DNA of 64,000 bases from Oscillatoriaceae cyanobacterium Prado104 (lineage in GTDB: Bacteria; Cyanobacteriota; Cyanobacteriia; Cyanobacteriales; Microcoleaceae). Under the pieces are notes generated by a model, which was not told where the DNA came from, made no database searches, and worked only from the letters and a program-made list of their open reading frames with translations. A program made the position numbers and the translations under genes. Within the stretch, counting starts at the first letter, position 1. Every line of letters starts with the position of its first letter. The stretch lies in contig JALOON010000034.1 of the NCBI GenBank assembly GCA_025454405.1, positions 1 to 64,000 of the forward strand, given 5' to 3'. Positions 51,112 through 64,000 of this stretch are shown here, one piece after another.

Positions 51112-54100
51112 ATGACTAACTTTCGCTGTTCCCTCCCGTTGGCTTGTGCTTTAATGCTGCTACCGCTAGCAGCCCGATCGCAGCCGATCGTTCCCGCTAG
51201 CGACGGCACCAATACTGCTGTCAATGCCGAGCAAAATCGCTTCAACATTACTGGCGGACAGTTGTCTGGTGACGGCACAAATCTGTTTCACAGTTTCAGT
51301 CAATTTAATCTTAACGAAGGTCAAACTGCCAATTTCTTAACTAATACCAGCATTCAAAATATTTTAACCCGAATTTCTGGCGGCGATGTTTCTGTCATCA
51401 ACGGACTCATTTCTGTTAGCGGCGGTAACTCGAATTTATTTTTAATGAATCCGGCGGGAATCGTCTTCGGTCAAAATGCTAGATTGAACATTCCCGGTGC
51501 TTTTTTCGCGACAACTGCTACGGGTATCGGTTTCGGCGATCGCGCGTTTAATGCTACCGGAATTAACGATTACCAAACTTTGCTCGGCAATCCCAATCGC
51601 TTTGAGTTTAACTATTCACAAACAGGTGCAATTGTCAATGCAGGTAACTTAGAAGTTGGCAGCGGTCAAAATTTAACTTTACTGGGCGGTACAGTCATCA
51701 ATACCGGGCAATTATCCGCACCGTCAGGTCAAATTACAGTGGCTGCAGTTCCCGGTCAAAATACAGTCCGCATCAGTCAAACTGGCAACTTATTGAGTTT
51801 AGAAATTGCACCAATTGTCGGAGCAGAAAACAGCTCGATCGCGCCCGTAGATTTACCTCAGTTGCTGACAGGACCGGGAGTAGCTGCAGCCACGGGTTTA
51901 ACGGCCAACGCGCAAGGTCAAGTGGTACTCACCAACGGGCAAACAGTGATAGCAGCACCGGGAAGCGCGATCGCGGGCGGTACGATCGCGGCCAGCGCGC
52001 TCGATCGCGGTAACGGCGGTACAGTGTCGGTATCTGGAGCGAATACTAGCTTTTTCGGCAGCATTGCAGCCCGCGGCGGTACGGCGGGCGGTGACGGCGG
52101 CAGCGTCGAGATTGCGGGCAAAAATTCTTTAACCTTCGCGGGCGCAGTCGATACGCGGGCGGAGAATGGCGCGATCGGCACTTTGCAACTGGCAGCACCA
52201 AATACTGCGATCGGCACCGCACAACTCCAAGCAGCACAACAGAGCGATCGACCGTTTACATTTATCTCGGAAGCGCAGTTGGAACAGATGGCAGCCGGCA
52301 GCAACGTCGTTGTCGATAGCGCCAGCGATATCACCGTCCAAGACTTGCCCGACAACACCCTTTCCCTGCAAGCAAGAACCGGAGATACCGTTACCTTTCG
52401 ATCGGGCGGAGTGTTCTTTGTCAACGATCCCAACGACTTAATCGAAACTAGAGGCGGCAGTATCAACATCAACGCTAGCAGCATCTCCCTCGGCAGGATA
52501 AATGCCGGCGGCGGCAATATCGCCCTCACCGCTAACGGCATCGACTTGCGGGGCGGCAGCAGTTCCGTTACCAGTACGGGCGGGACAATTAGCTTGCAGC
52601 CTCCCGACAGCAGGCAAATTCGGATCGGCGGGGGTGGCGATAATTTAGGAATTTTGGACTTGACGGCTGCCGATCTCAGCGCTCTGGCCCCCAGTTTTCG
52701 ATCGATCGCGATCGGGCGCGCCGACAGCAGCAACCCGATCGCAGTTGTTGCACCAACCACCTTCACCAGCCCGCTGACGCTGCGGGGAAGTTCGATCGCG
52801 GTGGAGAATCCTCTCAGGGCAACCGATAGCGCTGGCATCGCTTTCAATGCGCCGACAACCGCAATCGGCGCTAACATCGCTACTTCCGGCGGCGATCTCG
52901 CTTTTACCGGCAGCGTCTCCCTGACTGCGGACGCGGTTTTGAGCACTCAAGCTAGGGGCAACATTCTGTTCCAGTCGGTGGACGGATCTCGCGCCCTGAG
53001 GCTGGATGCCCAGCGAGTGCTGTTCGGCGGGACGATCGGTCAAACATCTCCCCTGGCAAGTTTGACTGTCAACGGGCGCAGTACGGAAATATCGGGGGTG
53101 ATTTCAACTACTGGCAACATCGCTTTCAACAGTGCCGTCACCCTCGATCGCAGCAGCACGATTACTTCCAGCGCCGGCAGCATCATTTTTGCCAATTCCC
53201 TCGACAGCTTGGTGGGAACTACCAATAATTTGACGCTGCAAGCTAGGGACAGCATTACGCTTGGCGGGCCTGTCGGTCAAACTCACAGGCTGGGCCAGTT
53301 GGCGGCGGACAGCGCTACCTTGACGGCTGCGGGGGCAGTAACAGCCGATCGCCTGACCGCGAAAGCCCGAGATAATGCAATTTTACGGGGCAATACTGCG
53401 GTGAGTTCGGGGGCCCGCATCGAGGCGGGAAACCTGCTGTTAGAAGGGAATTTAACCGCAACTGGCGGCAATTTGGAGTTGCAGGGAACTCGTGAGGTGC
53501 GGGCTGGCAGCATTACCTCGCAGGGAGGGAGGGTTCAAGTGCAGGGCGATGCGGTAGCGACAGGCGCGATCGATACTTCACAAGCTGCGAGTTTGGGGGG
53601 CGAAATTACGATTGTGAGCGGTTCGGGAGGATTAACGGCAGGTAGTTTGAACGCTTCGGGAGCGATCGGGGGGAATATCGCTCTTACTTCCAGTGCGGGC
53701 ATTACTGCGAGCAATCTCAACTCTAACGCTACTGTGGGTAACGGCGGCAGCGTGTTTTTCAGCGCGATCGGAAACGTTCAATCGGGTTTTATCAACGCTC
53801 AAGGCGGCAGCAGGGGTACGGGCGGCAATGTCAGCATTTCCACAACCGATCTGTTCCGCTCGAACGCCGTCTTTACAGATTTATCGGGCAATCTTTCCAG
53901 CATTTCTACCGTCGGAAATTTGGGGGCCGGAGCAATTTCAATTAGGCATGCTGGCGGGAGCGATCGGCCTTTTGTTATTGGCGGGGCGATCGAAAATGGC
54001 ACGCAGGGAACAATTAATGCCGGTGGGGGAAATGCAATTTTTCCTGCGATTGCTTTTGGCGAAACTTACACTCAAGGCAGTTTTCCCAATCAGATTTCAC

Positions 54101-55734
54101 TAATTACCCCAAGCGCGCCACAGTCTCCCGCACCGCCACCGCCGCTAACTCCCGAACCAACTCCCGCACCAACTCCCGCTCCTGTTACGCGATCGATAAA
54201 TCCTGCGGCAGCACTGTCAATTGCTACAGATTTACAAGTAGATGTGCGTCCGAATGAGGGCAGAAATTCTCAATTTAGAAGCGATCTGCAGCCTCCTACA
54301 AGCAGGTTTGATTCGAGTTCGGCGGCTGTTTTGGCCTTCGAGCAAACCTTCACTCGCGAATACGAAAAATATCTGGAGTTACCTCCGAGAAGGGCGATTA
54401 CTAATATGTCGGTTATTTACGAAGCCCTGCGCCGAAATGAAGCATTTACTGGGGTGAAAACAGGAATTATTTATATGAATTGGGTCAGCCGCAGCGATGC
54501 AGCAACAGGCAAAACTCGCCCTGAAGTGCTGGTAGCCAGTCGGGGAAATAACTTGACTCTGCCAGCCCCTTTTGCCTACGGAGAAAAAGGAGAGAGGAAA
54601 CAGGAAAACAATTCTCCCCGGTTGGCAGGCGAGGTTTTTTTGCAGCAGTCAAAGGAAGTTGCCGACGTTCCTAAAGGAGAGGGTTTAGAGTTAATTTTTG
54701 TGAGCGCTAATGCCGAACCGAAGCGCGTTTTAGTGCCGGCAGCTACGCGGTGGCAAGTCCTGCAATTAGCTGACGCGCTGCAAAGCGAAATTACTAACCC
54801 GAGAAGGCGCAGCAGTATCAGTTATTTGGATGCGGCGCAAAAACTTTATCGGTGGTCGATCGAGCCGATCGCAGCAGAATTGGCAGCTTCAAAAACCGAA
54901 AATTTGATTGTAATTCCGGCGGCGGGTTTGCGGAGCGTGCCTTTTGCTGCCCTGCACGACGGCAAACAATTTTCGATCGAAAAATTCAGCATAAGCGTGA
55001 TTCCAAGTCTGAGTTTGACTGATATTCGCTACGACAATATTTCTGACGATGAAGTTTTGGCGATGGGAATATCCGTGTTTGAAGATAAGCCTCCACTGCC
55101 TGCCGTACCGGTGGAGTTGCAAACCATTGCACCGCCCGATCGCGGCAAAACTTTTTTGAATCAAGAGTTTACTTTAGCAAATTTGCAAACTCAGCGATCG
55201 AGGCAACCTTTTGGCGTAATTCATTTAGCAACTCACAGCGAATTTCAGCCGGGGGAACCGAGCAATTCTTACATTCAGTTGTGGGATACTAAGTTGCGAA
55301 TTGATGAAATGCAGCGGTTGCGGTGGAACGAACCGCCGGTGAATCTATTAGTTTTGAGCGCGTGCAGTACCGCTTTGGGCGACGAACAAGCAGAGTTGGG
55401 ATTTGCGGGTTTAGCGGTGGCTTCCGGTGCCAAATCAGCTTTGGCTAGTTTGTGGGAAGTCAGCGATGAGGGGACTTTGGGGCTGATGACCGAGTTTTAC
55501 CGGCAGTTGCGAATTCCTCAGCGCAACGGTAAGGTGACGATTAAAGCGGAGGCTTTGCGGCAGGCGCAATTGCAGATGCTGCGCGGGCGGGTGCGGATTC
55601 AAGATGGAATGCTGCGAGTCGAAGGGCTTAACGAGACTGTGCCTTTGCCCGAGGAACTTGCGATTCGGGGCGATCGAATTCTTTCCCATCCTTATTATTG
55701 GGCGGCTTTTACGACGATCGGCAATCCTTGGTAG
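51112..55734 (+). CDS. Secreted haemagglutinin-type beta-helix protein with C-terminal CHAT protease domain
   Basis: A 1540-residue protein. A signal peptide (residues 1-23) precedes a two-partner-secretion (TPS/FhaB-type) domain, about 25-150, with FNITGGQLSGDGTNLFHSF and NLFLMNPAGIVFGQNA. Residues 150-1000 are Gly/Ser/Thr-rich with repeated short strands, a predicted beta helix. A Pro-rich linker (PAPTPAP) at about 1000-1035 precedes a linker and then a CHAT (caspase-like) domain. Its catalytic dyad is probably His1375 (HLATH, the second His) and Cys1418 (LSACSTALG). Such TPS-CHAT fusions are cyanobacterial. No TpsB partner is nearby. Confidence 0.92.
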   Translation: MTNFRCSLPLACALMLLPLAARSQPIVPASDGTNTAVNAEQNRFNITGGQLSGDGTNLFHSFSQFNLNEGQTANFLTNTSIQNILTRISGGDVSVINGLISVSGGNSNLFLMNPAGIVFGQNARLNIPGAFFATTATGIGFGDRAFNATGINDYQTLLGNPNRFEFNYSQTGAIVNAGNLEVGSGQNLTLLGGTVINTGQLSAPSGQITVAAVPGQNTVRISQTGNLLSLEIAPIVGAENSSIAPVDLPQLLTGPGVAAATGLTANAQGQVVLTNGQTVIAAPGSAIAGGTIAASALDRGNGGTVSVSGANTSFFGSIAARGGTAGGDGGSVEIAGKNSLTFAGAVDTRAENGAIGTLQLAAPNTAIGTAQLQAAQQSDRPFTFISEAQLEQMAAGSNVVVDSASDITVQDLPDNTLSLQARTGDTVTFRSGGVFFVNDPNDLIETRGGSININASSISLGRINAGGGNIALTANGIDLRGGSSSVTSTGGTISLQPPDSRQIRIGGGGDNLGILDLTAADLSALAPSFRSIAIGRADSSNPIAVVAPTTFTSPLTLRGSSIAVENPLRATDSAGIAFNAPTTAIGANIATSGGDLAFTGSVSLTADAVLSTQARGNILFQSVDGSRALRLDAQRVLFGGTIGQTSPLASLTVNGRSTEISGVISTTGNIAFNSAVTLDRSSTITSSAGSIIFANSLDSLVGTTNNLTLQARDSITLGGPVGQTHRLGQLAADSATLTAAGAVTADRLTAKARDNAILRGNTAVSSGARIEAGNLLLEGNLTATGGNLELQGTREVRAGSITSQGGRVQVQGDAVATGAIDTSQAASLGGEITIVSGSGGLTAGSLNASGAIGGNIALTSSAGITASNLNSNATVGNGGSVFFSAIGNVQSGFINAQGGSRGTGGNVSISTTDLFRSNAVFTDLSGNLSSISTVGNLGAGAISIRHAGGSDRPFVIGGAIENGTQGTINAGGGNAIFPAIAFGETYTQGSFPNQISLITPSAPQSPAPPPPLTPEPTPAPTPAPVTRSINPAAALSIATDLQVDVRPNEGRNSQFRSDLQPPTSRFDSSSAAVLAFEQTFTREYEKYLELPPRRAITNMSVIYEALRRNEAFTGVKTGIIYMNWVSRSDAATGKTRPEVLVASRGNNLTLPAPFAYGEKGERKQENNSPRLAGEVFLQQSKEVADVPKGEGLELIFVSANAEPKRVLVPAATRWQVLQLADALQSEITNPRRRSSISYLDAAQKLYRWSIEPIAAELAASKTENLIVIPAAGLRSVPFAALHDGKQFSIEKFSISVIPSLSLTDIRYDNISDDEVLAMGISVFEDKPPLPAVPVELQTIAPPDRGKTFLNQEFTLANLQTQRSRQPFGVIHLATHSEFQPGEPSNSYIQLWDTKLRIDEMQRLRWNEPPVNLLVLSACSTALGDEQAELGFAGLAVASGAKSALASLWEVSDEGTLGLMTEFYRQLRIPQRNGKVTIKAEALRQAQLQMLRGRVRIQDGMLRVEGLNETVPLPEELAIRGDRILSHPYYWAAFTTIGNPW

Positions 55735-56109: not shown

Positions 56110-56733
56110 ATGGAAAATCGGCTGAACGAAACCCAACTCCAGCAAATAGTAGCTGAAGTAGAACGCCTTTCTCAGATCCGGCAATCTCAACCTGATGCTG
56201 AAGCAATCAAAGAAATCTTGCGGGAATTAAACTTGCCTCCAGAGTTGCTAGATGACGCTTTAATCCAGTTGCAGCGCCGGAAAGCCTTAGCGCGGCAGCA
56301 GCGATTTCGCTGGATTGTGGGAGTAGTGGCGGTGGTGGTTGGGGCGATCCCGATCGCACTTACCGGATTTTACATATACCAAAACGAACAAGCGATCGAG
56401 CGCGTTTTTAGCCAACAAAATCGCATAACTTTAGTGCAGGATAACGGTGACAATTTAACAGTTATTTCCCGGCAAAACAATCCAGAAATATTTTACCGCG
56501 TCACCTTAAAAGATGCGCCGATCGGGAAAAAACTCTCACTATCTTGCGATTGGATCGACCCCAAAGGTCAAGTTGTCAAACAAAACCGCTATCAAACTCG
56601 CGAAATCAACACAACTATCTGGAATACTTACTGCCGCCAACGAATCGGCAACGTTGCTGCTGCGGGAAATTGGCAAGTAAAAATGTTCCTGAAAAATCGC
56701 ACGATCGGGACTGCATCATTTGAAGTTCAATAA
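56110..56733 (+). CDS. Single-pass membrane protein of unknown function
   Basis: A 207-residue protein: a helical cytoplasmic N-terminus (residues 1-70, MENRLNETQLQQIVAEVERL and LPPELLDDALIQLQRRKALA), one transmembrane segment (WIVGVVAVVVGAIPIALTGF, about 75-95), then a beta-rich C-terminal domain with two Cys (LSCDWIDPKGQ; NTYCRQRIG) that could form a disulphide outside. No family is recognised. It is isolated, with a repeat island downstream. Confidence 0.7.
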   Translation: MENRLNETQLQQIVAEVERLSQIRQSQPDAEAIKEILRELNLPPELLDDALIQLQRRKALARQQRFRWIVGVVAVVVGAIPIALTGFYIYQNEQAIERVFSQQNRITLVQDNGDNLTVISRQNNPEIFYRVTLKDAPIGKKLSLSCDWIDPKGQVVKQNRYQTREINTTIWNTYCRQRIGNVAAAGNWQVKMFLKNRTIGTASFEVQ

Positions 56734-57179: not shown

Positions 57180-58994
57180 ATGAAACTCGCCAACAAATCG
57201 CGCCTAGTTTTAGGATACTGGGGCTGCGATTCCCGCCAAAAACTAGAAGCAATGCTAGCCAAAAGTATTGCCGATTCTTGCAGCGAAACCCCACTGCAAA
57301 AAATCGCAGATTCCATCGCAGTTGGCGAAACATATCCGATTTGGAATGTTGTCAGTACCGAATTAGATCGCCCGCCCGATCGAGCAAAACATCATACTTT
57401 TCAAATCGCCGCCCTCTCAGCATCAGGACTGTTTGTATATCCATCAAATAACGGTGAAATGCTACCCGACGCCTGGGCAAACATTCGCGAAAACTGCCTG
57501 ATTTTGGGACGCGAACCCTTCGGGCGAGTAACGCTTTACTGGACGCAAATCGGACAGACTATTTGGTTTGCATCGAGATTGCAACTGCTGTTAAATATTC
57601 GGGAATCGCCAGAAGCAAGCATTCCCGCTTTGTACGGTTATAGCTGTTTTTCCTACGTACCAACTCCCTTAACTCCCGTAGAAAATGTGTTTGCAGTTCC
57701 CGCAGGAACAGAATTGACTTGGAGGTGCGATCGAGATGCTGTAATTATTTTTGAACCTAAATCGCAACGCTTGTTAGAATGGCAAGAAAGTTCGGAACAA
57801 ATACATGATGAAACAGAGGCGATCGACCATTTACAAAACTTACTTAAAGATGCTATTTACCGCCAAATTACCGATATCAACAGCGACGAAACAGTCGGAG
57901 TATTTCTCTCGGGCGGTTTAGATTCCTCAGTTGTCGCAGCTTTATTAATCAAAGCCGGAGTCAAAGTGCGCGCTTACACTCTCGACTTCGGCGAATCTGG
58001 AATTCCCGAATATCCTTGGGCAGAAAAAGTAGCCAGCGCCCTGCAAATTCCTTTAGTAAAAGTAGATGCCAAACCGCAGCGAATCAAACAAGTTGTGAAT
58101 GCTGCCGTGCAAGCCTTAGATTTGCCTTTCGGCGACGGAGTTACTGTGCCTCTTTACCTGTTAAATCAAGTTGCGAGTCAAGAAAGTGCGATCGTTTTCA
58201 ACGGCGAAGGTGGCGATCAGTTATTTGCTGGCTGGACGAACAAACCCCTAATTGCAGCCGCTGTTTATCAAGCAGCAAATCCAGACAGCAATGATAATTT
58301 TGCCCTGCAATACTTGCGAACCTTTCACCGCCTCTGGGGATGCGAAACAAAAGTTTTTCAGCCAGATTTTTACAGTCAAATTCAGAATTTGCACCCTCAA
58401 GATTGGCTGTTAGAGGCGCTAAATCCTGCGTTAGGCGCGTCTTTGCTGCACCGCCTCCGGCGCGCGAGTTTGATGTTGAAAGGCGCGCAAAACATCCATC
58501 CCCGCGCTACTAATTTAGCATTAGCTTGCGGTTTGAAAGTCCGATCGCCCTTTTGCGATTTTCCCCTCGCAAACTGGACTTTTCAACTGTCAGGAGAATT
58601 GTGTTTGCGCGGCGCTTGCGAGAAATACATCCTCAAGCGGGCTGTGGAAAATTGGCTGCCTGCGGAAATAGTTTGGCGGGAAAAACGGGGGATGGGAGTA
58701 CCTTTAACTTCCTGGTGTTTTAATGAATTTTGGCATCAAATTGGCGATTGGTTGAATCCGGCGGTATTGCTGTCAGAAAAATGCTGGCAACCCGATTTAG
58801 CCGATCGAATTATCTCCGGCAAATTCGCAGCAGGAATTCAAGGGCGGCGCATTGGCGAAATTTTGTGGCTGTTAATTATGTGGCAAATTTGGCGATCGCA
58901 AATTTTAGGCGAGGAAGTCAAACATAAATCTTGGAATCATCCGTTTTGGTTGCCTCGATCGATTTGGAGTTACCGCCAGAAGTGGCAAGAATAA
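57180..58994 (+). CDS. Asparagine-synthetase-like protein lacking the glutaminase Cys
   Basis: The ATG at 57180 gives 604 residues. The N-terminal half shows an Ntn-hydrolase-like segment (LILGREPFGRVTLYW, FASRLQLLL) but the chain starts MKLANKSRL, without the Cys2 needed for glutamine hydrolysis. The C-terminal half is an ATP-pyrophosphatase synthetase domain with PP-loop SGGLDSS (244-250), NGEGGDQLFAGW and LACGLKVRSPFCD. It may adenylate a carboxylate and use ammonia or an amine. It lies 84 bases before a LysA-like gene. Related proteins in natural-product pathways perform amide or lactam formation. Confidence 0.85.
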   Translation: MKLANKSRLVLGYWGCDSRQKLEAMLAKSIADSCSETPLQKIADSIAVGETYPIWNVVSTELDRPPDRAKHHTFQIAALSASGLFVYPSNNGEMLPDAWANIRENCLILGREPFGRVTLYWTQIGQTIWFASRLQLLLNIRESPEASIPALYGYSCFSYVPTPLTPVENVFAVPAGTELTWRCDRDAVIIFEPKSQRLLEWQESSEQIHDETEAIDHLQNLLKDAIYRQITDINSDETVGVFLSGGLDSSVVAALLIKAGVKVRAYTLDFGESGIPEYPWAEKVASALQIPLVKVDAKPQRIKQVVNAAVQALDLPFGDGVTVPLYLLNQVASQESAIVFNGEGGDQLFAGWTNKPLIAAAVYQAANPDSNDNFALQYLRTFHRLWGCETKVFQPDFYSQIQNLHPQDWLLEALNPALGASLLHRLRRASLMLKGAQNIHPRATNLALACGLKVRSPFCDFPLANWTFQLSGELCLRGACEKYILKRAVENWLPAEIVWREKRGMGVPLTSWCFNEFWHQIGDWLNPAVLLSEKCWQPDLADRIISGKFAAGIQGRRIGEILWLLIMWQIWRSQILGEEVKHKSWNHPFWLPRSIWSYRQKWQE

Positions 58995-59078
58995 AATCAA
59001 CACCGCAAAATCTTCCTCTTCTCTTCTCTTCTCTTACTTCGTGTCCTTCGCACCTTCGCGGTTCATTTAAAACTACTT

Positions 59079-60305
59079 ATGTTCGCACTTACAGATCGCA
59101 CTTCAACCCTCAAACAACCGCCTTTTACTTTCGCTATAACTGAAGAGTTATTAGCGACTTACGGTTCGCCACTTTACGTTTATCAAAGCGATGTTTTGCG
59201 CCGGACTATCGCCCGCATTACTAACGCCATTTCTTATCCGCAAACTCAATTTTGTTTTGCCAGCGTCACGAACGGCAACATCGCCTTGCTGCAAATTTTT
59301 CAAGCTTGCGGGTGGGGATTGCACGCCAATACACCGGGAGATATTTATTTAGGAATTAAGGCGGGTTTTGCGCCCAAAAACATTGTTTACAGCGGCAGCA
59401 ACCTGCACCGCAGCGAGATGGAACAAGTTCTCAGGTGGGGTGTCACAACTCTAAATTTGGACAGTCTCAGTCAGTTGCAATTGTGCTGTGAAGTTTATCA
59501 ATTTTTGAGGGAAAACCAACAGGTTTTAGCACCGCCTCGTTTGGGGTTGAGATTAAATTTGCCCGAATTAACTGGAGACAGTCGCATCGGAGTGCGATCG
59601 ACCGAATTTCTTGAGGCAATTTCCATCGCTAAAGCAGCCGGATTAAAGCTTAGTGGCTTGCATTTCTATCGCGGTACTGGAACTAATTCCACCGCAGCTT
59701 TTACTCAAGTAATCGACACTGTAATTGCCATCTGCCAGCAATTGCCAGATTGGGAATATCTCGATTTTGGTGGCGGTTTTGGCTATCCATATCGCGGGGG
59801 AACGGCTTTTGATTGGGAACTGTTCGGCGCGGAATTAACTGACAGAATTAATCAGCTCGATCGCCCGATTGAATTAATTATTGAACCGGGGCGATCGGCT
59901 GTAGCGGGATGCGCTACTTTACTCGCGCGAGTTGTTTCGACAAAATGGCAGGAAGCCAAACAAATTGTCGGTGTAGATACTACGGTTGCCAATATTTCAG
60001 TACCCTCAGTTCACGGCGGTTATCGAGAAATTTGTACTTGGAATTGCCAGGATTCTCTACACCTTACCGATGTTTGCGGCAATACTACTTATTCGCGAGA
60101 TTACCTGGGAAAAAACTGTCAGTTGCCAGCTTTAGCAGTGGGAGAAATCCTGGCTATTTTAGATGTTGGCGCTTACGGATATGCGATGTCGTCGCATTTT
60201 TTACACCGTCCGAGACCAGCGGAAGTGCTGTTAGAAAATAGCCAGCACCGCCTAATTCGCCGCAGGGAAGATTACAGAATTTTGTTAGCAAATCAAGTTT
60301 TTTGA
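59079..60305 (+). CDS. LysA-fold (type III PLP) protein lacking the PLP lysine
   Basis: A 408-residue protein of the diaminopimelate/ornithine decarboxylase family by fold: SPLYVYQSDVLRRTIARI, LDFGGGFGYPYRG, ELIIEPGRSAVAG, AYGYAMSSHF, PAEVLLEN. At the position of the PLP Lys (YA.KAN in LysA) it reads FASVTN, so Lys is Val63; the substitution appears genuine if the N aligns. The active-site CESGD-like segment is also changed (DVCGNTTYS). It might bind PLP or another ligand without catalysis. Its close spacing to the AsnB-like gene suggests one unit. Confidence 0.85.
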   Translation: MFALTDRTSTLKQPPFTFAITEELLATYGSPLYVYQSDVLRRTIARITNAISYPQTQFCFASVTNGNIALLQIFQACGWGLHANTPGDIYLGIKAGFAPKNIVYSGSNLHRSEMEQVLRWGVTTLNLDSLSQLQLCCEVYQFLRENQQVLAPPRLGLRLNLPELTGDSRIGVRSTEFLEAISIAKAAGLKLSGLHFYRGTGTNSTAAFTQVIDTVIAICQQLPDWEYLDFGGGFGYPYRGGTAFDWELFGAELTDRINQLDRPIELIIEPGRSAVAGCATLLARVVSTKWQEAKQIVGVDTTVANISVPSVHGGYREICTWNCQDSLHLTDVCGNTTYSRDYLGKNCQLPALAVGEILAILDVGAYGYAMSSHFLHRPRPAEVLLENSQHRLIRRREDYRILLANQVF

Positions 60306-60325: not shown

Positions 60326-60553
60326 ATGAAGTGCATTAAATGCGGAACTGATAATAATTTAAAAACCCGCAGGGCTAAGGGCGATCGCTGCAAACAATGC
60401 AACCATCAGTTTGTTTTTGAATGGACTACTATCAATGGCGTCAAAATAACTGATGCCAGGTTTGCCAAGGCAATCGCCGATCTTTCTGTTAACGATACGC
60501 TGTTTTTTACTCACAAACAGTTAGCTTATTTTTTATGCAAGCACTTGAAGTAA
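60326..60553 (+). CDS. Zinc-ribbon protein, N-terminal half of a split paralogue
   Basis: The ATG at 60326 follows ggaggag and gives 75 residues: MKCIKCGTDNNLKTRRAKG, a four-Cys zinc ribbon (CIKC ... CKQC), then ITDARFAKAIADLSVNDTLFF as in the intact paralogue at 61707-62996. It stops at HKQLAYFLCKHLK, where the paralogue continues into a membrane region. It may be a separate short gene or the first half of a broken gene. It begins 21 bases after the LysA-like stop, suggesting co-transcription. Confidence 0.65.
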   Translation: MKCIKCGTDNNLKTRRAKGDRCKQCNHQFVFEWTTINGVKITDARFAKAIADLSVNDTLFFTHKQLAYFLCKHLK

Positions 60554-60647
60554 AAAAATCTTAGTGCCTTGTACGCATTTCAAACTAGGTCGCTCTTGAT
60601 AGAGCAAATAATTTGCATGATTCACAGATCTTGGAAAGAATACTCTT

Positions 60648-61610
60648 ATGTTAGCCACAATCATTATTCTAATCGCATTCACGATTTTTTTGTTGTTTTT
60701 AAACCCATCCTTGGTTATATGTCTTTGGACGTATGTTATAATTCTGTTTGTTTTTCCTTTAAGGGGAAAAGGAGCAATAAATATCGATAAACTAACTCAA
60801 AGAGGAATCAAAAAAGAGAGAATCCAACCCAAAAACCCACCTCAAATACCCCTTGACAGAACACATGGAACGGCTGAAGATGTTTTACTTAAATTAAATC
60901 GGTATCACTATAAATACTGGATTAATAAATGGAATGCAATCAACCCGATCGCCAAAATGCTGCCACCTCCCCACGATACCAATGAAAATGCTGCCATCAG
61001 TCCCGATGTTAGCGCTTACAGTTTCGATCGAGTGGTGGTGTGCGATCGACCGGAAATTGCCCAGTTTTTAATCGCCAACAATTTTCACTTTGAAAACAAC
61101 TGTGCAGTCCTCAGCATTACCGAATATCCTCAAAGTATCTTTGAGGCAACTATGCAAATGCTGCGCCGAAATCCCGACTTAAAAGTTTATGCTTTGCACG
61201 ATTGCAACCCCCAAGGAATAGGTTTAGCCAACCACCTGCGTACCAGTCCTAATTGGTTTGCAAATAACAGCGCGGTAATTATCGATCTTGGATTGCTGCC
61301 CCGGCAAGTTATTGCAGCGCGCCACAGTATGCTTGTTTTAAATTCTCAGGAATCTGCAGGAGAAGCAATGCAGTTGCCTCCTGAAATTCGGCAAAATTTA
61401 TCCGCTGAGGAATTGCAGTGGCTTGAAGCAGGTAATTATGTAGAATTAGAATCATTTAATCCTCACAGATTCATTCAAACTCTAGGTTTGGTAATTGCCA
61501 GTTGTTCTCGGGATTTACGACAACACAATAATAGCAGGTTTGTTGCGATCGAAGAGGAGAATATAGAAAAGTGGGATATTTATATCTATGCTGATGGCGG
61601 TTTTGGGTGA
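60648..61610 (+). CDS. Membrane protein matching the C-terminal half of the split paralogue
   Basis: 320 residues: a hydrophobic N-terminus (TIIILIAFTIFLLFLNPSL), a polar linker, and then a domain shared with the paralogue (YWINKWNAINPIAKMLPPP, ISPDVSAYSFDRVVVCDRPE, ENNCAVLSITEYPQS, NPDLKVYALHDCNPQGIGL). The ALHDC.P.GIGL segment has a distant look of the TOPRIM-fold DxD loop, with Asp retained but the second Asp replaced; this is weak. Its own ATG has a ggaaag site 11-16 bases upstream, so it may be expressed. Function unknown. Confidence 0.65.
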   Translation: MLATIIILIAFTIFLLFLNPSLVICLWTYVIILFVFPLRGKGAINIDKLTQRGIKKERIQPKNPPQIPLDRTHGTAEDVLLKLNRYHYKYWINKWNAINPIAKMLPPPHDTNENAAISPDVSAYSFDRVVVCDRPEIAQFLIANNFHFENNCAVLSITEYPQSIFEATMQMLRRNPDLKVYALHDCNPQGIGLANHLRTSPNWFANNSAVIIDLGLLPRQVIAARHSMLVLNSQESAGEAMQLPPEIRQNLSAEELQWLEAGNYVELESFNPHRFIQTLGLVIASCSRDLRQHNNSRFVAIEEENIEKWDIYIYADGGFG

Positions 61611-61706
61611 AGTTAGTACAGCAAATTATCGCCAGATATGCCGAACAGAAAATTGCATAATTTTGTTGGTATATCGAGTTTTTTTAATCATCAAAAGGAG
61701 ATTTTT

Positions 61707-62996
61707 ATGAAGTGCATTAAATGCGGAACAGATAATAAGTTAAAAGACCGTACAGCCTGGAGAGGTCGCTGTTTAAGGTGCGGCCATCCGTTTGTTTTTG
61801 AACCGACGGCGATGAGAGATTTCAAAATAACTGACCCGTTGTTTTCCAAGGCGATCGCAGATATTTCAGTTAACGATACGCTGTTTTTTACTCCCCGACA
61901 GTTATTTTACCTTTTAGACCAGCGATCGAGGCTAAGAATATCTAATGGATTAAATGTTCCAGCCTACATATTTATTAACATATTTTGGGGTTTCTTGTTT
62001 GGTTTTGCAGCAGCAATACTTTCGGAATTGAATGTATTTATTTTCGGAATGTTGGCAGTTAACATTGTTTTGCTATTGCTAACTTTTAGTGATATCCGTT
62101 CTAGTAAATACCTGTATCAAGAACGCCAGAATTTTGCAAGATCTTTGCAAATTTGGGGAGGAATAGTTACGATCAATGGCCTGATTAGTAGTCTGTTATT
62201 AAATTCCTCCATGCAATTTTTATGCAGTTCTGCTTTCGGGCTGCTATCTATCTTTTTGGGAAGCCTAAAAGTTCCTAAAATAACTAAAGAAGTTATTATT
62301 ACATACAGCCTGTTTCAAGACTGGATTAATAAGTGGACAGAAATCAACTCCTCGATCGCCAAAATGCTGCCATCTCCCCGCGATACCAATGAAAATGCCG
62401 CCATCAATCCCGATGTCAGCGCTTACAGTTTCGATCGAGTGGTGGTGTGCGATCGAGCGGAAATTGCCCAGTTTTTAATCGCAAATAAATTCCATTTTGA
62501 AAACAACTGTGCGGTGCTCAGCGTTACCGGATATCCTCAAAATATCTTTGATACAACGATGCAAATGCTGCGCCGCAATCCCGACTTAAAAGTGTACGCT
62601 TTGCACGATTGCAGCCCCCGAGGAATTGGTTTAGTTAACCACCTGCGCACCAGTCATAATTGGTTCCCAGATAACAGCACAATAATTATTGATATCGGAC
62701 TGCTACCCCGACAAATTATGGTGGCTGGCAGCAATATGTTTGTGCTAAATTCAGAGAGTTCGGCACGAGATGCTAGAGAACTGCCGTCAGGAATTCGCCA
62801 AGATTTCTCTTCTGAAGAATTGCAGTGGTTGGAGTCAGGTAATTATGTAGAACTGGAATCGTTTAGCCCTCAAAAAATCATTCAAATTCTGAATCTAGGC
62901 ATTGCCGGCAGTCGAGATTTAGACAGCGATGATAGTGGCTTGATTCTGGTAGGGGATGCGGGTAGTTCTATCTATGTTGTTGACAGTTTTGGTTGA
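61707..62996 (+). CDS. Zinc-ribbon/membrane/TOPRIM-like protein (intact paralogue)
   Basis: The ATG at 61707 follows aaggag and gives 429 residues. A four-Cys zinc ribbon (MKCIKCGTDNKLKDRT, RCLRCGHPF) is followed by ITDPLFSKAIADISVNDTLFF, four hydrophobic segments (about 90-205), and a C-terminal alpha/beta domain like that of 60648-61610 (VVVCDRAEIAQFLI, CAVLSVTGYPQN, NPDLKVYALHDCSPRGIGL). It is one continuous protein where the neighbours are two. Localisation would be the membrane with the alpha/beta domain in the cytosol. No enzyme family is recognised. Confidence 0.72.
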   Translation: MKCIKCGTDNKLKDRTAWRGRCLRCGHPFVFEPTAMRDFKITDPLFSKAIADISVNDTLFFTPRQLFYLLDQRSRLRISNGLNVPAYIFINIFWGFLFGFAAAILSELNVFIFGMLAVNIVLLLLTFSDIRSSKYLYQERQNFARSLQIWGGIVTINGLISSLLLNSSMQFLCSSAFGLLSIFLGSLKVPKITKEVIITYSLFQDWINKWTEINSSIAKMLPSPRDTNENAAINPDVSAYSFDRVVVCDRAEIAQFLIANKFHFENNCAVLSVTGYPQNIFDTTMQMLRRNPDLKVYALHDCSPRGIGLVNHLRTSHNWFPDNSTIIIDIGLLPRQIMVAGSNMFVLNSESSARDARELPSGIRQDFSSEELQWLESGNYVELESFSPQKIIQILNLGIAGSRDLDSDDSGLILVGDAGSSIYVVDSFG

Positions 62997-63275: not shown

Positions 63276-63347
63276 GTTTGGGGTTAATCGATATTTCGGA
63301 CTTCGGTAAAATTTGACAATACTTAGAAACATATTGAGGTGCCAAAA

Positions 63348-64000
63348 ATGTTTTTTCTAAAACCATTCCTAAGTTCCAAAAGCCACACGCAACAACCCTC
63401 TCTCTCTCCAAATTCTGAGGTTGAATCTGCCTCAAATTGGCGGATAGCTTGGGGTAAACTAGATGCGATCGACCAACATACAACAGCTTGGCGTGAAGGT
63501 AAAATTGCAATTATTTGCTCGAGTCCCCAAACTCAAATAATTCTCAGTCCCTCAAAACAATTTGTTGTAGTGGGCGATATTTGGCTGAGCAACAGATTGG
63601 AATTGCTGGAAAAAAGGGGGATTCCTGCTAGTAATTGGCAGGGTTGCGATCGCCAATTAATCGCTCGATTGTGGGAACGTTGGGGAGTTGCATGTTTGCC
63701 GCTATTGGCGGGTATGTTTTGCTTTGCAATTTGGGATCGAGAAAGTCAAATTTTGCGGCTGGTGCGCGATCGCGCGGGGGCACGAACTCTCTACTATACT
63801 AATGCTGGCGCGACTCGTTGGATTGCTCCTCAATTGCGCGCGATCGCACCTTACCGTTCCAGCGAACTCGACCTCGTAGCCCTGCGAGATTACCTCTGTT
63901 GTTCCTTCGTTCCGGGCGATCGAACCCTCTGGCAACAAGTGCGAGAACTCCGTCCAGGAAGCATTTTAAGCTTCCCTGACGGCACGATTTCCGCTTACTG
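63348..64000 (+). CDS. Second asparagine-synthetase-like protein, N-terminal part (runs off the right edge)
   Basis: From ATG 63348 an open frame of 217 codons reaches the window end. It reads MFFLKPFLSSKSHTQQP and lacks Cys2. The Ntn domain is recognised by LLAGMFCFAIWDRESQILRL, RDRAGARTLYYT and RELRPGSILSFPDG, the usual pattern of the glutamine amidotransferase half. The synthetase half, if present, lies outside. It is likely a paralogue in type of the gene at 57180-58994. Its product may be non-glutaminase. Confidence 0.8.
   Translation, partial: MFFLKPFLSSKSHTQQPSLSPNSEVESASNWRIAWGKLDAIDQHTTAWREGKIAIICSSPQTQIILSPSKQFVVVGDIWLSNRLELLEKRGIPASNWQGCDRQLIARLWERWGVACLPLLAGMFCFAIWDRESQILRLVRDRAGARTLYYTNAGATRWIAPQLRAIAPYRSSELDLVALRDYLCCSFVPGDRTLWQQVRELRPGSILSFPDGTISAY

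Follow-up and report, generated by a model that had tools for sequence, protein, structure and literature searches.

In the XrtA/PEP-CTERM system, an AsnB-like amidotransferase (TIGR03108) and a LysA-like decarboxylase (TIGR03099) are found in one locus layout, and within the AsnB (asparagine synthetase) family the lasso peptide cyclases and beta-lactam synthetases use an amine as nucleophile. Both of the latter carry out chemistry other than asparagine synthesis, and the asparagine synthetase (AS)-like enzymes PesC, TsrC and ScdTA act on the C termini of peptides, as stated in the excerpted text of PMC13060819. RimK-type ligases, which lengthen a protein at its C terminus, also make an ATP-dependent change there (PMC12239564, in excerpt), but with an ATP-grasp fold rather than the PP-loop fold of the AsnB proteins considered here. 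In this work, we analyse 64,000 nucleotides from Oscillatoriaceae cyanobacterium Prado104 (assembly GCA_025454405.1, contig JALOON010000034.1, positions 1 to 64,000; ‘the window’ hereafter means this whole stretch), in which a diaminopimelate (DAP) decarboxylase-like protein without its pyridoxal phosphate (PLP) lysine, LysA-V, and an AsnB-family protein without its glutaminase cysteine, AsnB-A, are part of a conserved cassette. The other members are a transmembrane (TM) protein, g1, a zinc-ribbon/TM/Toprim-like protein that ends in Phe-Gly (FG), and a second AsnB-family protein, AsnB-B. Our preferred reading, to which we assign a probability of about 0.4, is a membrane-linked cassette in which AsnB-B modifies the FG C terminus and LysA-V serves as a binding partner that does not decarboxylate.

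The locus resembles several described systems, and scored below the family cut-offs of those against which it was tried. As an XrtA/PEP-CTERM pair it reached 155.9 of 816.9 bits (TIGR03108) and 93.8 of 478.45 bits (TIGR03099), and AsnB-A scored 49.6 of 525 bits against the lasso peptide cyclase model (NF033535); no precursor-sized frame recurs within 7 kb of LysA-V. Anti-phage defence, searched with the five cassette proteins in PADLOC (E up to 0.1), gave only weak matches, namely QueC-like PP-loop similarity at 25.3 and 13 bits and a match of 11.8 bits for g1. No paper on the cassette was found by title or abstract start, which does not establish its absence from print.

A conserved cassette in Cyanobacteriota

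A scan of GTDB species genomes returned 86 relatives of LysA-V, and the best 80 of these, which were used for comparison, all carry cyanobacterial names in their record titles. Gene order is conserved in the 86 loci that have LysA-V: AsnB-A lies on the same strand as LysA-V in 79 of the 79 loci where it was seen, upstream in 78 and at a distance of at most 1.5 kb in 75, g1 lies upstream on the same strand (75 of 75 loci where seen), and the Toprim-like gene follows LysA-V downstream on the same strand (82 of 82). AsnB-B was seen in 54 loci, in 44 of which it is downstream on the opposite strand. The loci were at most about 21 kb long and many were ended by contig ends, so that absences from them mean little. 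Among 24 members of g1, Pfam matches to MG2 were found in 16 and to DUF3859 in 13 (E up to 1).

Clustering of frames of at least 100 amino acids over 81 loci recovered, besides LysA-V, the AsnB-type proteins (79 loci), the Toprim-like protein (77) and g1 (72), and no further family in more than 21 of the 81. Frames of 30–99 amino acids within 7 kb of LysA-V likewise formed no family in more than 20 of the 86 loci, and a conserved small carrier or precursor protein near the cassette was rejected on this count. As no further family is recurrent, no carrier or tailoring protein recurs near LysA-V.

Co-occurrence was evaluated across 292 Cyanobacteriota genomes, with counts not weighted for shared descent. 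LysA-V (E value of 1e-96 or better) is present in 26 of them; its valine was read in ten of these (G000, G010, G044, G022, G027, G030, G125, G174, G197 and G278), and the match in G123 is without the Val63 site. AsnB-A (1e-90) occurs in 25 genomes, all of them among these 26, G010 being the one without it. The Toprim-like protein (1e-10) is found in 30, that is, the 26, G004, G018 and G038, and as a fragment in G121, and AsnB-B (1e-90) in 31, which comprise 25 of the 26 (not G123) together with G087, G116, G011, G004, G018 and G038. All four proteins are present in 24 of the 26 LysA-V genomes. Among the AsnB-B genes found outside these genomes, that of G087 (L107:6486-8225) is apparently intact, LysA-V, AsnB-A and the Toprim-like protein giving no match at the thresholds used, that of G011 (L109) is split in two, the pieces lying about 1 kb from each other, and that of G116 (L108) reads SGGLESS, not SGGLDSS.

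The genes may lie far apart. G174 has LysA-V together with the Toprim-like gene at about 0.19 Mb, AsnB-B at about 3.49 Mb, and AsnB-A with g1 at about 4.44 Mb; in G125, G231 and G099, AsnB-B is at least 150 kb from LysA-V. Their joint retention despite this scatter speaks for a functional unit. At the compact end, G044 has LysA-V, AsnB-A, the Toprim-like gene and AsnB-B in a row on a single strand, their frames touching or overlapping; LysA-V, the Toprim-like gene and AsnB-B are arranged likewise in G010, and all five genes of Gloeothece verrucosa PCC 7822 sit on a plasmid. Taken together, the case for a conserved system behind the gene set is strong. In one annotated record its proteins are labelled asparagine synthetase, decarboxylase and hypothetical protein.

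The initial annotation had described the AsnB-like and LysA-like genes as an adjacent pair, and its coordinates proved correct, with both genes on the + strand (Table 1). The evolutionary linkage between the two is real (AsnB-A in 25 of 26 LysA-V genomes, LysA-V in 25 of 25 AsnB-A genomes), but they belong to a set of four or five conserved genes that also includes AsnB-B and the FG membrane protein. A single frame in G123 (L093:9106-10965) joins residues 63–476 of AsnB-A to residues 211–408 of LysA-V; as parts of both are missing, we read it as a deletion and not as a working fusion.

LysA-V has the decarboxylase fold without the PLP lysine

LysA is the best curated-family match of LysA-V, at 243.1 bits against TIGR01048, where the cut-off is 297.9. 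Its AlphaFold2 model (mean predicted local distance difference test (pLDDT) score of 78.8) contains the barrel plus beta domain fold, and the first 15 Foldseek matches in the Protein Data Bank (PDB) are DAP decarboxylase chains (best E value 2.4e-29). Confidence falls below a pLDDT of 50 at residues 302–314, 332–346 and 367–375, which by homology are loops near the active site.

Both substitutions proposed in the initial annotation were borne out. The FASVTN of LysA-V pairs with YAxKAN, which puts Val63 on the PLP lysine, and valine fills this position in 83 of 83 alignment rows, three of which are the window itself (window, L001 and L083) and 80 of which are L003–L082, one each; the window thus agrees with all 80 named relatives. 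Valine is also found there in L085-L088, L090, L091, L097-L099 and L110, and again in G010 and G044, from other classes of the same phylum (YAVVCN and YAIVCN). The CESGD loop reads CGNTTYSRD, with Thr337 for the cysteine and Tyr338 for the glutamate. In a 16-row tree whose long branches are flagged, ten V-type proteins group together, apart from six lysine-bearing LysAs (100/100). Judged from these alignments, the residue losses are fixed and old.

To place the remaining active-site residues, we used the roles given for Thermotoga DAP decarboxylase in the excerpted text of PMC8277567 and mapped them by motif and spacing, residues 246-249-285-315-343 of the Thermotoga enzyme falling at equal steps on 269-272-308-338-366 of LysA-V. 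On this mapping Lys46, Asp65, His179, Arg285 and Glu315 are changed to Val63, His82, Tyr197, Val308 and Tyr338, the cysteine preceding Glu315 is Thr337, and Ser182, Glu246, Arg249 and Tyr343 are kept or alike as Thr200, Glu269, Arg272 and Tyr366. LysA-V thus shares with DAP decarboxylase (LysA, a fold type III PLP enzyme) the fold and little-changed contacts to the PLP phosphate and ring nitrogen (Thr200, Glu269, Tyr366), but is without the Schiff-base lysine, the stacking histidine, the CESGD cysteine and glutamate and one distal arginine, and its substrate lid is shorter. Because the phosphate and ring-nitrogen contacts stay while the Schiff-base, stacking and CESGD residues go, LysA-V has probably retained a ligand pocket and lost decarboxylation.

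The alignments hold no alternative PLP lysine specific to the LysA-V family. Two candidates were considered and rejected: K345 is invariant in A1 but is arginine in L090, L091, L098 and L110, and K289 is invariant in A1 but LysA enzymes also carry a lysine there. The Prado104 genome has a separate, lysine-bearing LysA on contig C47, so LysA-V need not make lysine.

Two AsnB-family proteins without the glutaminase cysteine

The best curated-family match of AsnB-A is asparagine synthase. Its synthetase domain is complete (Pfam Asn_synthase, 180.5 bits), only a remnant is left of its glutaminase domain (20.1 bits, cut-off 25), and it scores 164.7 bits against TIGR01536, short of the cut-off of 267.1; NCBIfam scoring of AsnB-B in the window covered its first 220 amino acids. 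The initial annotation had reported a missing glutaminase cysteine next to an intact SGGLDSS, and alignment and a scan of start sites agree with it. Upstream of 57180, the AsnB-A frame holds no methionine, and no Met-Cys start, as far as the stops before 57102. A start of the type M/V/L-C-[GS]-I was found in none of 80 AsnB-A and 54 AsnB-B frames (one per locus, window included), the sole match to this pattern (L057) being inside the protein. The scripted search covered this pattern alone; in a 17-row alignment, no AsnB-A or AsnB-B has a cysteine start of another kind either. A distant AsnB-A (L091) begins MSGI, and the Prado104 genome encodes another AsnB with an MCGI start.

Aligned with Escherichia coli AsnB and N-acetylglutaminylglutamine amidotransferase, AsnB-A and AsnB-B both carry SGGLDSS (SGGIDSS or SGGVDSS in some AsnB-B), the GEG glutamate (E. 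coli 348, Met not counted) and the lysine at E. coli 449, which we take to be the catalytic one. The region L243–S249, E343 and K502 are invariant or nearly so among 24 AsnB-A sequences, and S264–S270, E364 and K516, that is, the PP loop, the GEG glutamate and the RPK lysine, are invariant among 25 AsnB-B. Each protein forms one group in a tree of 17 rows, and the two groups are sisters when rooted with three outside enzymes. AsnB-A and AsnB-B are like TsrC and ScdTA, which catalyse amidation, and PesC, which forms a nitrile, in family and PP loop, and a C-terminal carboxylate would be their target too; PesC draws its ammonia from glutamine, whereas AsnB-A and AsnB-B are without the glutaminase cysteine (comparison with PMC13060819, in excerpt).

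A nearly invariant Phe-Gly end on the Toprim-like membrane protein

The zinc ribbon of the Toprim-like protein consists of four invariant cysteines (26, 29, 45 and 48). The best Foldseek matches of its model are topoisomerase VI A subunits (1d3y, E value 2.1e-4, TM-score 0.43 by target length), and the Pfam TOP6A-Spo11 Toprim score, 22.0 bits, is weak and below the cut-off of 24.1. Toprim enzymes carry an acidic DxD. At that site the consensus here is HDxxPxG, with HNASxNG in G004, G018 and G038, which makes it unlikely that the cyanobacterial form acts as a nuclease or topoisomerase. In a phage collection, no homologue was found at an E value of 0.01.

The conserved part of its tail is the very end. 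Of the 82 loci having the gene, 76, window included, have a frame with more than 85% coverage of the query; with one such frame taken from each, 75 of the 76 close with Phe-Gly-stop. In the remaining locus, L062, the frame stops some 100 bases short of the locus end, which is a contig end. Six further Toprim-like proteins end in the same way (L090, L098, L104-L106 and L110). The preceding tail is variable. In the 98 frames that end in FG, Lys/Arg make up 2.4% and Asp/Glu 18% of the final 30 residues. The tail is presumably disordered, as modelled pLDDT is below 50 from residue 430 to 452 and about 33 at the last residues. These 98 frames come from 1,510 non-overlapping frames in the fetched loci, and 94 of them are Toprim-like; the other four are two that we take to resemble MIF-type tautomerases, one that looks spurious and one Streptomyces protein described below. 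Such a distribution is strong evidence that the FG end is a highly constrained feature.

In G004, G018 and G038, the cassette takes a minimal form, in which the FG-ending Toprim-like gene overlaps AsnB-B, and LysA-V and AsnB-A give no match at 1e-90. The window itself has two copies of the Toprim-like gene. The first is broken by an in-frame stop in its N-terminal part, with the remainder in another frame (60648-61610), and still retains a GGFG-stop terminus, so both copies end in FG; for the intact copy, the mechanical open reading frame (ORF) begins at 61638, ahead of the start shared by relatives. Tandem copies are also seen in other loci, for example L005 and L064.

Table 1 Features of the cassette in the Oscillatoriaceae cyanobacterium Prado104 window.
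Feature	Position	Strand	Description
g1	56110..56733	+	207-aa protein, one hydrophobic stretch then a weak MG2/DUF3859-like domain; upstream of AsnB-A
AsnB-A	57180..58994	+	AsnB family, glutaminase Cys gone; SGGLDSS and KRGM lysine retained; GEGGDQLFAGW where GEGxDE...Y is expected
LysA-V	59079..60305	+	DAP-decarboxylase fold; Val replaces the PLP lysine, CGNTTYSRDYLG replaces the CESGD loop
Val63 codon	59265..59267	+	Schiff-base lysine position
Broken first copy of the zinc-ribbon/TM/Toprim-like gene	60326..61610	+	Follows LysA-V and precedes the intact copy
Intact zinc-ribbon + TM + Toprim-like protein	61707..62996	+	Start common to relatives = M24
Phe-Gly-stop of the intact Toprim-like protein	62988..62996	+	End of the variable, low-confidence tail
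AsnB-B	63339..64000	+	Second Cys-less AsnB-family protein, truncated by the window end
AsnB-B, whole gene	63339-65102 of the contig		L083:8340-10103

Upstream of the cassette, the ORF list of the window has a frame of 1,540 amino acids (51112-55734) with a signal-peptide-like start and repeats.

A related arrangement on a Streptomyces plasmid

Whereas the genome survey was of Cyanobacteriota, a search of a plasmid collection found one record beyond them, a plasmid of Streptomyces sp. NBC_01237 that carries no annotation. It encodes an AsnB-B homologue (42% over 536 columns), which scores 117.5 of 525 bits against the lasso cyclase model. Upstream are three Toprim-like proteins (two found by tblastn, the middle one by eye), none of which ends in FG and two of which read HDAD. 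Between these and the AsnB-B homologue, directly upstream of the latter, lies a gene for a 179-aa protein that has a single hydrophobic stretch and whose acidic tail, rich in Gly, ends in DDDFG. The FG tail is thus carried here by another polypeptide, yet stays beside AsnB-B. No LysA-V and no AsnB-A of its own were found within the 31.6 kb fetched. The actinomycete version (L113:10211-18031) is accompanied by one gene that looks cupin-like by eye, with no NCBIfam match, and another that is nearest to aminobutyraldehyde dehydrogenases; these neighbours could point to an amine or aldehyde as substrate. Among viral contigs, 41 and 2 matches to the AsnB-B pattern were obtained, none of them confirmed.

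Discussion

From the gene set we infer a substrate, a chemistry and a role for LysA-V as follows. The zinc-ribbon/TM/Toprim-like protein would present a flexible tail ending in Phe-Gly. AsnB-B would most likely adenylate the C-terminal glycine carboxylate and hand it on to an amine or free ammonia, so that the tail would end in an amide or a conjugate. AsnB-A would be a further enzyme of this type, perhaps working with LysA-V. LysA-V, in which the usual internal aldimine is impossible and which should not decarboxylate, would most likely bind a PLP-type phosphate ligand, an amine or an amino acid, and supply or gate the amine. This reading draws on an FG end that is nearly invariant while the tail before it varies, on the minimal pair of an FG-ending Toprim-like protein and AsnB-B, on the Streptomyces tail beside AsnB-B, on the synthetase residues that AsnB-B keeps, on the co-occurrence of the genes and on the precedent of AS-like enzymes that modify peptide C termini. 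The evidence is moderate that AsnB-B acts on the FG end, and weak as to the exact chemistry and what LysA-V does.

A wider version is tentative and, as a whole, rather doubtful: a system for modifying or conjugating protein C termini, known from Cyanobacteriota and at least one plasmid of an actinomycete, in which an AsnB-type ligase recognizes a portable acidic FG tail on membrane proteins and couples an amine to it, the cyanobacterial form also having a second ligase and LysA-V to select or deliver the amine.

Several observations weigh against modification of the FG tail by AsnB-B. The two genes are at times found apart, as AsnB-B is present in G087, G116 and G011, where nothing matches the Toprim-like protein at 1e-10, G123 has an FG-ending Toprim-like gene without an AsnB-B match at 1e-90, and G121 has only a Toprim-like fragment. 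No FG-ending frame of at least 40 amino acids was found in the 16 kb around AsnB-B of G087, nor any FG-ending frame near that of G116. The Streptomyces evidence is a single record, and a conserved FG end might just as well serve for docking or as a signal for degradation. A further point concerns the Glu363–Tyr368 pair, which is conserved in PesC, TsrC, ScdTA, AsnO and E. coli AS, and of which, in PesC, a Tyr-to-Phe change abolished and a Glu-to-Ala change lowered activity (PMC13060819, in excerpt). Placed at GEGxDE...Y by its five-residue spacing, the pair would correspond to Gln-Trp in AsnB-A and Pro-Pro in AsnB-B, which speaks against ordinary amidation chemistry. To our knowledge, beta-lactam synthetases likewise do without it. 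Compared with PesC, TsrC and ScdTA, which have the pair and act on a precursor of a ribosomally synthesized and post-translationally modified peptide (RiPP), AsnB-A and AsnB-B differ both in this pair and in the proposed substrate, a membrane-protein tail. The same replacement bears on the suggestion in the initial annotation that the two proteins had complementary losses, which is not simply so, because both AsnB proteins also appear to be without the synthetase-site pair.

The most serious rival, albeit a less likely one, is a sensor or regulatory complex in which all members are pseudoenzymes that bind a PLP-like ligand or ATP at the membrane, with FG as a docking motif or degron. It would account for the loss of catalytic residues throughout, as on the mappings above LysA-V is without the lysine, the cysteine, the CESGD glutamate and the distal arginine, both AsnB proteins are without the cysteine and the Glu-Tyr pair, and the Toprim-like protein reads HDxxPxG or HNASxNG in place of DxD, whereas the PLP phosphate and ring-nitrogen contacts of LysA-V are kept or alike. 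However, both AsnB proteins keep the PP loop, the GEG glutamate and the catalytic-type lysine across 24 AsnB-A and 25 AsnB-B sequences, the PP loop is altered instead in the orphan of G116, which has lost its partners, and two of the three Streptomyces Toprim-like proteins are still HDAD.

Closer to the initial annotation is a small-molecule pathway, in which AsnB-A amidates an amino acid or derived ligand held by LysA-V, AsnB-B forms a second amide and the Toprim-like protein serves transport or regulation. An amino acid bound to the LysA-like protein may be amidated, and the tight association of AsnB-A with LysA-V (25 of 26 genomes, one strand in all 79 loci, within 1.5 kb in 75) fits it, as does BtrK, a related solved decarboxylase whose PDB molecule name refers to a carrier-bound amino acid. 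Yet the pathway as a whole is improbable, as no carrier or tailoring family recurs beyond 21 of 81 loci (20 of 86 for small frames), and it leaves the invariant FG end and the minimal pair unexplained. In our view, the conserved FG C terminus is a better candidate carboxylate for AsnB-B than an amino acid held by LysA-V. That the two are simply divergent enzymes of ordinary lysine and asparagine metabolism, as the curated names lysA and asparagine synthase suggest, can be set aside, as both DAP decarboxylase and asparagine synthetase identities fail on cut-offs and defining residues and the genome holds a lysine-bearing LysA and an MCGI-start AsnB besides.

This work puts a name to a conserved cassette, whose FG end offers a handle for probing its function. 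If AsnB-type enzymes do modify the tails of membrane proteins, a family known for its work on metabolites and RiPPs would be widened, and LysA-V would be a well-bounded family in which the fold of a PLP enzyme persists without its lysine.

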